From assembly GCA_030066085.1 (NCBI GenBank), contig JASJCI010000001.1, positions 1-64,000 of the forward strand: a stretch of 64,000 nucleotides of DNA, given 5' to 3'. The notes under the pieces were generated by a model that worked only from the letters and a program-made list of their open reading frames with translations, was not told the origin of the DNA and made no database searches. This document shows, piece by piece, positions 34,283 through 37,188 of this stretch. Each line of letters begins with the position of its first letter. Position 1 is the stretch's first letter. The stretch is from Gammaproteobacteria bacterium (GTDB lineage: Bacteria; Pseudomonadota; Gammaproteobacteria; GCA-001735895). The translations under genes and the position numbers were made by a program.

Positions 34283-34356
34283 GCAGGGCTAGTAATATTT
34301 TTTTTGCATGATAATGTCTGGCGCCGAATTAATCAGCCCGTTTGATCGAGGTTAAA

Positions 34357-34908
34357 ATGCCGCTGAGCACGCCTGCAGAACGCGAACTGACGCATACACG
34401 CGTCGTCACCTGTCACGGCTACCGCCGCAGTGACGGCCTGTTCGATATCGAAGGTCGCATCGTAGACACCAAGCCCTATCGCTTTCGCAACCGCGATCGG
34501 GGTGGCTGGATCGAAGCGGACGAGGCGCTGCACGATATGTCGATACGACTGACCGTCGACGATAACTTCGAAGTGGTGGACGCAGAGGCAGTAATCGATG
34601 CCTCGCCGTACAACTATTGCGCCAGCGTTTCCCGGGTAGCGCGCAACCTGATCGGCTTGCGTATCCGTCCGGGCTGGACCGACAAATCGCGCCAGGCGAT
34701 GGGTGACAAGCGTGGCTGTACTCATCTCACCGAACTGCTGGGCCCGGTGGCAACCACGGCAATCCAGACCATCGTGGCCGGGCGCAACCGCGATGCAAAA
34801 CCAGGCCCTTACCGGGGCAAGCCGCCGTTTCTGAACAGCTGCCACTCCTATGCCGACGACAGTCCCGTGATCAGGGAACACTGGCCGGAGGCCTACCGGG
34901 GCGACTGA
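34357..34908 (+). CDS. DUF2889 family protein
   Basis: 183-aa soluble protein. It has the DUF2889 hallmarks: an early RxVxCxGYRRxDGLFDIEGR-like stretch (CHGYRRSDGLFDIEGR), HDMSIRLTVDD, and GCTHLTELLGPVATTA. The domain is widespread in proteobacteria and of unknown function. The ATG at 34357 has GAGG 5 nt upstream; an in-frame TTG 15 bp earlier is possible. The next gene (35013) is 104 bp downstream, past a palindrome. Confidence 0.85.
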   Translation: MPLSTPAERELTHTRVVTCHGYRRSDGLFDIEGRIVDTKPYRFRNRDRGGWIEADEALHDMSIRLTVDDNFEVVDAEAVIDASPYNYCASVSRVARNLIGLRIRPGWTDKSRQAMGDKRGCTHLTELLGPVATTAIQTIVAGRNRDAKPGPYRGKPPFLNSCHSYADDSPVIREHWPEAYRGD

Positions 34909-36087: not shown

Positions 36088-36162
36088 GCGCGCCGGCAGG
36101 CGCGAAAGAATGGTGCCCGGAGCCGGAGTCGAACCGGCACGGTGTTTCCACCGAGGGATTTT

Positions 36163-36852
36163 CATACCATCTACGGCTTTCGCCGCAGCGGGCGTTACCC
36201 GCCTTTGTGGTCTGGACTTTCTCTTTACCTTATCATGACTGGCATAACTTAGGCAGGAGCCGTCAAGTCTCTACACTTTCGTCGATACGGACGCGACATG
36301 AAGTTGTTCAAATATACCCGATTCGACCTGCAACAGGCCGTGGCCTCGTCGAAATCCATGCGACAAACGCTGATACGTTTGCACGTCGCTCCATACGGCG
36401 GTAACTACAGCGTGTTAAAAAAGGCCATCAAGTATTTCGACCTCGACACGTCGCATTTCACCGGACAGGCCTGGAACAGGGGGAAATCCATCGCCCCGAG
36501 AAAGGAACTCGACGCCTATCTCAGGACCGGTTCGAACATTTCGTCGTTCAAACTGAAGAACAGGTTGCTGCAGGCAAAATTACTGCAGCCGAAATGTTCT
36601 GGCTGCGGGCGCCTCACCTGGCGAAAACAGCCGATTCCCCTCGAACTCGATCATATCAATGGCAACAACAGAGATAATCGAATTCTCAACCTCAGGTTAC
36701 TTTGCCCCAACTGTCATGCCCTGACCCCGACTTATCGAGGTAAAAACCGTAAAGACGCTTAGCTCGGGATTGCCACCATCTTGCAGCTGAGGTTTCCCCG
36801 AATTTGACTCCATTCACATCGACGGTTTCCCGGTCGAGTGCTCAATCAGTTT
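36163..36852 (-). ncRNA. Group I (IC3-like) self-splicing intron in tRNA-Leu(UAA)
   Basis: 690 nt. P1 is formed by exon CUU plus intron AA with TTGAG (36845-36841), giving a U.G pair at the 5' splice site. P2 is a GAAA-capped hairpin (about 36840-36815). The Q region reads AATCCCGAGCTAAG (36771-36758), R reads GTGTAGAGACTTGACGG (36276-36260) and S reads AAGAGAAAGTCC (36225-36214). A GCGGC-GAAA-GCCGT P9 hairpin follows, and the intron ends in G. These elements and the insertion site closely match the cyanobacterial/plastid trnL(UAA) intron. An HNH gene lies antisense in the P6 loop. Confidence 0.93.
36298..36762 (+). CDS. HNH homing endonuclease, antisense within the group I intron
   Basis: 154 aa. 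The C-terminal half is an HNH nuclease: CSGCG and CPNCH form a zinc site and LELDHINGNN..NLRLLCPNCH carries the H-N-H residues. The N-terminal half is basic, predicted to bind DNA. The gene runs opposite to the tRNA and intron. Its last codons and stop are complementary to the 5' strand of P6 (CGTC, 36757-36754), and its start is 15 bp from the 3' strand (GACG, 36283-36280). Intron mobility is the likely role; the recognition site would be an intronless trnL(UAA). Confidence 0.88.
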   Translation: MKLFKYTRFDLQQAVASSKSMRQTLIRLHVAPYGGNYSVLKKAIKYFDLDTSHFTGQAWNRGKSIAPRKELDAYLRTGSNISSFKLKNRLLQAKLLQPKCSGCGRLTWRKQPIPLELDHINGNNRDNRILNLRLLCPNCHALTPTYRGKNRKDA

Positions 36853-36950
36853 AAGTCCCTTGCGTCTACCAATTTCGCCATCCGGGCAGGATAGTGTCGT
36901 CTAGCAGGCGTCGCGATGATACCCCATCGATGTTTCGAGGTATACAGAAA

Positions 36951-37024
36951 TGGAGGCGGAGGTCGGAATCGAACCGGCGTACACGGCTTTGCAGGCCGCT
37001 GCATAACCACTCTGCCACTCCGCC
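36951..37024 (-). tRNA. cysT: tRNA-Cys(GCA)
   Basis: 74 nt with encoded CCA. Acceptor GGCGGAG/CTCCGCC, discriminator T, anticodon loop CTGCAAA (anticodon GCA), T-loop TTCGATT. Middle gene of the Gly-Cys-Leu cluster, as in E. coli glyW-cysT-leuZ. Confidence 0.96.
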
Positions 37025-37112: not shown

Positions 37113-37188
37113 TGGAGCGGGAAACGAGATTCGAACTCGCGACCCCAACCTTGGCAAGGTTGTGCTCTACCAGCTGAGCTATTCCCGC
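37113..37188 (-). tRNA. glyW: tRNA-Gly(GCC)
   Basis: 76 nt with encoded CCA. Acceptor GCGGGAA/TTCCCGC, D-arm AGCTCAGCTGGTAGAGC, anticodon loop TTGCCAA (anticodon GCC), T-loop TTCGAAT. It is the first gene of the tRNA operon, 51 bp downstream of pgsA and behind a near-consensus promoter. Confidence 0.97.

Follow-up and report, generated by a model that had tools for sequence, protein, structure and literature searches.

What is the DNA that splits the tRNA-Leu(UAA) gene of this gammaproteobacterium in its anticodon loop, and does the insert carry the means of its own movement? We addressed this question in the window (the whole 64,000-nt stretch of DNA that was analysed), in the rest of its genome and in related bacterial and viral loci.

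Results

An interrupted tRNA-Leu(UAA) gene in its usual setting

Run in intron mode, ARAGORN places a tRNA-Leu(UAA) gene on the minus strand at 36111-36887, whose 690-nt intron starts at gene position 36, directly after U34; these are exactly the coordinates proposed in the initial annotation. Plain ARAGORN (default settings, no intron mode) did not call this split gene in the window. When joined, the two exons (35 and 52 nt) give a perfect 87-nt tRNA-Leu(taa) with an encoded CCA, and the fold of the joined exons agrees with what had been read from the sequence. The insertion site, between U34 and A35, is that of trnL(UAA) introns of subgroup IC3. The adjoining tRNA-Cys(gca) and tRNA-Gly(gcc) bear out the suggestion that the gene occupies the normal glyW-cysT-leuZ position. 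The ORF that follows the tRNA gene (window 34342-34908, plus strand) is matched, by eye, by an ORF behind the intron-bearing tRNA-Leu of two relatives, G003 and G027. Because of this counterpart, the flank is syntenic even in G003, where tRNA-Cys and tRNA-Gly were not seen.

The tRNA content of the source genome (a 4.39-Mb assembly, 96.6% complete, with 32 tRNAs above threshold) was taken from family searches. These searches also sought a second tRNA-Leu(UAA) in the 96.6%-complete assembly and found none, the other Leu anticodons being TAG, CAG and CAA, in line with the earlier remark that this is the only leuZ-like gene. Some isotypes assigned by ARAGORN in intron mode, such as Phe(aaa), were not counted as other tRNAs, as they are probably Leu(taa) with shifted boundaries. 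The split gene is likely the sole reader of UUA codons in this genome, a reading that rests on an incomplete assembly.

Table 1. Features of the tRNA-Leu(UAA) locus, with positions in the window and the evidence for each.
Feature	Position	Strand	Evidence
5' exon of tRNA-Leu(UAA), final base U34	36853-36887	-	ARAGORN intron mode; same sequence as in intronless relatives
Group I intron of 690 nt, ending in G (36163)	36163-36852	-	ARAGORN; covariation; insert-less relative passes RF00028
3' exon of tRNA-Leu(UAA), CCA encoded	36111-36162	-	ARAGORN; fold of joined exons; same sequence as in intronless relatives
P1 (CUUAA/UUGAG), splice-site pair U36853.G36843	36841-36855	-	U.G in 52/52
P2	36815-36840	-	compensatory changes
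P3 5' strand, partner 36256-36261	36806-36811	-	100% paired, 104 two-sided cells
P3 3' strand	36256-36261	-	covariation
P4-P5 domain (P and Q elements)	36763-36802	-	sequence; invariance partly from selection of relatives
P6 5' strand, overlapping the HNH stop codon (36760-36762)	36761-36763	-	two-sided changes U-A/C-G/G-C
P6a 5' strand, other strand encoding the HNH C terminus	36747-36757	-	90% paired, two-sided changes; kept in HNH-less relatives
P6a 3' strand, other strand preceding the HNH start codon	36280-36290	-	covariation, coordinates
P7 5' strand (R element), partner 36215-36219	36265-36269	-	100% paired; U-A to A-U in 21/52
P7 3' strand (S element)	36215-36219	-	covariation
P8	36226-36255	-	88% of cells paired; innermost tested pair unsupported
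P9.0, P9 (36188-36202) and P9.1 (36172-36187, GAAA loop)	36166-36211	-	P9: 108 two-sided cells
HNH endonuclease gene (154 aa), on the strand opposite the intron and within the loop of P6a	36298-36762	+	PF13392 1.3e-5; phrog_10822 8.6e-47; pN/pS 0.24-0.30
tRNA-Cys(GCA), neighbour	36951-37024	-	tRNA scan
tRNA-Gly(GCC), neighbour	37113-37188	-	tRNA scan

The intron core is supported by covariation

For the covariation analysis, we aligned 52 tRNA-Leu(taa) introns, collected by a P/Q pattern and stripped of long inserts, and tested 65 named pairs of P1-P9.1, including the P3/P7 pseudoknot, against controls in which the partners were slid by 1-3 columns. Standard pairing was found in 93% of cells, compared with 32-44% for slid partners, and two-sided changes occurred at 39 pairs (580 cells, against 94-141 in the slid controls), while one tested pair in P8 and one in P9.1 were unsupported. 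The U.G pair at the splice site and the terminal G are each present in all 52 introns. Since the relatives were fetched with the P/Q pattern, the invariance of P4/P5 is no evidence for that domain; with this reservation, the alignment supports the P1 U.G pair, the Q/R/S core, the tetraloop hairpin in the P9 region and the terminal G noted earlier. The P5 loop is short (about 16 nt, 36775-36790) and has no P5abc extension, and IC3 introns have been described as lacking P5a-d (PMC11835236). The site after U34 and the matching core also agree with the earlier assignment to the cyanobacterial/plastid trnL type. Judged from its sequence, the insert belongs to the group I introns of trnL (IC3-like) type, and covariation supports its P1-P9.1 core.

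At its gathering threshold, Rfam gave no match in the window, and RF00028 matches the window intron only in part, at 15.3 bits, below threshold. Rfam overlooks this intron because the inserted gene interrupts P6: the intron of the relative G004 (L260), which has lost the insert, reaches 50.1 against a cut-off of 50, over model positions 1-253, that is, the whole model. The initial annotation had named a missing covariance match, together with a lack of spliced reads, as grounds for refuting the intron; the missing match is no such ground, because the insert breaks the Rfam model. Minimum free energy folding of the window intron alone was neither significant nor diagnostic (z -1.4), and neither it nor the Rfam scan at threshold was counted as evidence.

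The P6a loop holds a conserved HNH gene on the opposite strand

While the initial annotation was right about the intron, its site, its type and its position, it overlooked the most informative part of the locus, an antisense HNH gene at 36298-36762. The encoded protein scores 25.1 bits against PF13392 (cut-off 24.8) and contains an HNH motif with zinc-binding CxxC pairs. Cys100, Cys103, His119, Asn127, Cys136, Cys139 and His140 are invariant in 12 aligned HNH sequences. When the HNH family and its model were searched against solved structures, no homing endonuclease matched in fold with confidence; the matches were weak ones to McrA/HNH, which are consistent with an HNH protein and not decisive. 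The same antisense gene occurs at 11 gammaproteobacterial loci besides the window (three of which, L299, L291 and L292, repeat L061, L042 and L046 with identical proteins), and the window protein and these 11 form one clade with support of 100/96. The gene is nonetheless rare: a search across the phylum found it in one of 399 genomes, the window's own.

This gene shares bases with the ribozyme: its stop codon overlaps P6, and the 5' strand of P6a is the complement of its last codons. Among the relatives, P6a covaries while the last residues of the HNH protein vary. The pN/pS of the antisense gene is 0.24-0.30 (about 0.25, at near-saturated synonymous sites), which indicates purifying selection and therefore a gene that has been kept functional. 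In most antisense copies, a Shine-Dalgarno-like AGGA/GGAG lies a few bases before the start, the window copy having a weak match only, and a consensus scan for a sigma-70-like promoter of the gene found none. The gene is presumably expressed. In one locus, L309, it is broken.

Presence, absence and decay among relatives

The intron is found in four of 41 family genomes. In G000, the window's own genome, and in G003 it carries an intact HNH gene, and in G004 and G027 this gene has been deleted, leaving a remnant of P6a. More than 20 relatives have an uninterrupted tRNA-Leu(taa), nearly always beside tRNA-Cys and tRNA-Gly. The sequence around the insertion site is identical between these relatives and the window exons, so an empty site exists. 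In a tree of one gene, UvrC, the four intron bearers do not group, well-supported branches force four changes, and the nearest relatives of G000, G004 and G027 have no intron. This scattered presence reflects gain or loss, and loss alone could explain it. The intact gene, the broken gene, the deleted gene with the intron kept and the empty site may correspond to stages of the known homing cycle.

The initial annotation took such introns to be rare outside cyanobacteria, a view that has to be abandoned. An exact, conservative R-element pattern, whose count is a lower bound, turns up in at least 22 of the 369 gammaproteobacterial genomes searched, and there for the most part within introns of tRNA-Leu(taa); the P/Q pattern occurs at no fewer than 119 loci in several phyla; and gammaproteobacterial cases have been published (PMC4853749).

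Some loci have peculiarities of their own. The intron-bearing tRNA-Leu of G004 (L260) ends in CAA, not CCA, and two partial tRNA-Leu-like repeats lie upstream of it (L260 130-310). When short introns were searched with tblastn for remnants of the HNH gene, the matches were mostly spurious, the L044 query having run into intron sequence, and only L084 looked real. This tRNA-Leu(taa) intron of a member of the Bacteroidota (Lishizhenia) contains a degenerate HNH C terminus near its 5' end (intron positions 3-92), which suggests a separate insertion in or near P1.

A second tRNA of the family, tRNA-Arg(TCT), also has a group I intron. In G000 (C8:68973-69282; L019:1626-1935; L345) it is 233 nt long, ORF-less and located between tRNA-Pro and tRNA-His. 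In relatives (L348 1101-1511, L349 1065-1511, L350) it carries a PD-(D/E)XK endonuclease in sense orientation (PF11645, 1.3e-39 for L349), and in G029 the insert is shorter and apparently decayed. Within one family, the introns of tRNA-Leu(UAA) and tRNA-Arg(TCT) thus differ in both the fold and the strand of their nucleases.

The HNH family lies beside tRNA-Leu(UAA) in viruses

In viral contigs, we examined 29 non-redundant free-standing relatives of the HNH protein. A tRNA lies within 150 bp of 19 of these, and in 18 of the 19 it is tRNA-Leu(taa), although this tRNA makes up just 18 of the 79 tRNAs in these viral loci. The nearest tRNA is Leu(taa) in 18 of 23 loci, versus 8.2 expected under random choice within each locus, and none of 200,000 simulations gave so high a number. 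From sequence, this adjacency suggests what the target of the HNH protein might be. In phage isolates, HNH relatives are likewise located within tRNA clusters, next to tRNA-Leu(taa) in Rhodococcus phage Francesca, next to a tRNA-Leu in mistaenkt, Maleficent and GodonK, and next to other tRNAs in B8 and Dorin. No tRNA is annotated near the HNH relative of Dulem virus 42.

Viral contigs also contain trnL introns with the antisense HNH gene. The two viral introns that could be placed (L195 and L373) fall inside the gammaproteobacterial intron clade with support of 97/90, which makes an exchange of the intron and its HNH gene between phages and bacteria, in either direction, plausible. Bacilli have HNH-family genes in sense orientation in their trnL introns, and viruses have them in tRNA introns, so the family has entered introns more than once. 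Examples are the tRNA-Leu(taa) introns of three uncultured Bacilli (L048, L058 and L099), of which at least L048 has a strong ribosome-binding site, and two viral introns in tRNAs of other apparent isotypes (ARAGORN: Thr for L174 and Tyr for L212), with an HNH gene of the same superfamily. The 861-nt tRNA-Leu(taa) intron of another viral contig (L202) has a sense 195-aa ORF that is LAGLIDADG-like by eye. Four viral contigs (L172, L194, L229 and L252) each have at least two group I introns in tRNA genes, such as Arg(tct) and Leu(taa), separated by a few hundred bases.

Discussion

The reading that we favor, and consider probable, is that the trnL intron is mobile and homes through its antisense HNH endonuclease, that it splices itself from the sole tRNA-Leu(UAA) gene found, and that its HNH gene is of phage origin. 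As the anatomy and the covariation suggest, GTP would attack at the U34.G pair of P1 in the pre-tRNA, and the exons would then be joined at the terminal G to yield a normal tRNA. The HNH gene lies in the P6a loop, on the opposite strand; its C-terminal codons and stop double as P6a and P6, and its ribosome-binding region faces the 3' strand of this helix. Uninterrupted tRNA-Leu(UAA) genes (intronless leuZ) are most likely what the endonuclease binds and nicks or cuts, and repair by recombination would copy the intron and the HNH gene into the empty site. Once the intron is fixed, the HNH gene would decay and the splicing core would be kept. The HNH family probably derives from phages, where it also exists free-standing beside tRNA-Leu(UAA). 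A bolder version, which we offer tentatively and with some doubt, is that an HNH lineage specific to tRNA-Leu(UAA) carries trnL introns back and forth between phages and the chromosomes of bacteria, the locus being the resident form of a phage-linked homing system whose HNH C terminus and ribosome-binding site co-evolve with P6a base for base.

It is also conceivable, if improbable, that this trnL group I intron is an unremarkable one, passed on vertically, which splices and carries the HNH gene as a passenger with no role in movement, its patchiness being due to repeated losses. The wide distribution of trnL introns seen with both patterns would fit such a history, as would the mixture of ORF-less and HNH-bearing introns within the gammaproteobacterial intron clade and the two relatives that have lost the HNH gene and kept the intron. 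A passenger, however, would decay, and the HNH gene has been under long-term purifying selection; moreover, its orientation and site are constant, and its family is specifically tied to tRNA-Leu(UAA) in viral contigs. We consider it more doubtful still that the HNH protein serves mainly for interference, being directed at tRNA-Leu(UAA) genes in rival phages or other mobile DNA, with host-to-host homing secondary. The abundance of HNH relatives in phage tRNA clusters would suit this role, and so would the presence of the same intron and antisense gene in viral contigs, both placeable ones lying within the gammaproteobacterial clade, but most intron-bearing bacterial relatives have no intact HNH gene. 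The failed Rfam match and the weak z-score of the window intron might hint at a split tRNA gene that is dead, or at an error of assembly, with no splicing in either case. This can be rejected with near certainty because independent genomes show the same arrangement, compensatory changes included, and the exons are intact in a 96.6%-complete genome where no other tRNA-Leu(UAA) was found.

How does this intron compare with known systems? The trnL(UAA) intron of cyanobacteria and plastids (IC3) shares with it the gene, the site (U34/A35), a P/Q/R/S-type core and a small P5, and differs in that the window intron resides in a gammaproteobacterium and has an antisense HNH gene in P6a. To our knowledge, cyanobacterial trnL introns generally lack endonuclease genes. 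A trnL intron was reportedly found in a gammaproteobacterium by Vepritskiy et al. in 2002. Plastid trnL introns have been described as immobile (PMC5733544). Closer to the window in taxonomy, Beggiatoa and Thiomargarita, also Gammaproteobacteria, have group I introns in tRNA-Leu-TAA and tRNA-Arg-TCT, the same two tRNA genes that bear introns in the window's genome; their interrupted genes span about 324-353 nt, and the accessible part of the source describes neither an endonuclease nor a structure (PMC4853749).

Endonucleases in bacterial tRNA introns have a precedent in the tRNA-fMet intron of Synechocystis, whose homing endonuclease (Bonocora and Shub 2001, as cited in PMC3984707) targets the anticodon region of the tRNA gene that carries the intron; the HNH protein of the window element would resemble it in this. 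That system involves a different tRNA and a different nuclease fold, and PF11645, of that fold, sits in sense orientation in the tRNA-Arg(TCT) intron of the relatives. The fold of the Synechocystis enzyme is said to be PD-(D/E)XK. Antisense homing endonuclease genes are known from nuclear rDNA introns, as in Didymium (I-DsqI), where compartments of the nucleus are believed to restrain antisense interference (PMC9548176). There too, the endonuclease gene lies opposite the ribozyme strand, but the enzyme is of the His-Cys kind and its gene sits in P9.2 of an IE intron of the nucleus, whereas here an HNH gene sits in P6a of a bacterial intron. The phage proteins of phrog_10822 belong to the same family as the window HNH protein (8.6e-47) and are free-standing beside tRNA genes, mostly outside introns, with a function that is putative. 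According to a 2014 review, all phage introns then known lay in protein genes (PMC3984707), and a 2025 paper on a group I intron database mentions neither HNH nor antisense genes. While gammaproteobacterial trnL introns and antisense endonuclease genes in nuclear rDNA introns are already known, a search of the literature outside subscription papers turned up no description of a bacterial tRNA intron with an endonuclease gene on its opposite strand, and within that literature the present case is the first.

Three aspects of this locus have a wider bearing. Default tRNA and Rfam scans overlooked the tRNA gene at 36111-36887, which is probably essential. In P6/P6a, one stretch of DNA serves as protein code on one strand and as a ribozyme helix on the other. 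Finally, trnL(UAA) holds the textbook case of an ancient group I intron, whose mobility and its mechanism have been debated for decades; since an intron of this kind here carries a conserved endonuclease with viral kin beside tRNA-Leu(UAA), close relatives have empty sites and one genus contains a decay series, such mobility is directly testable.
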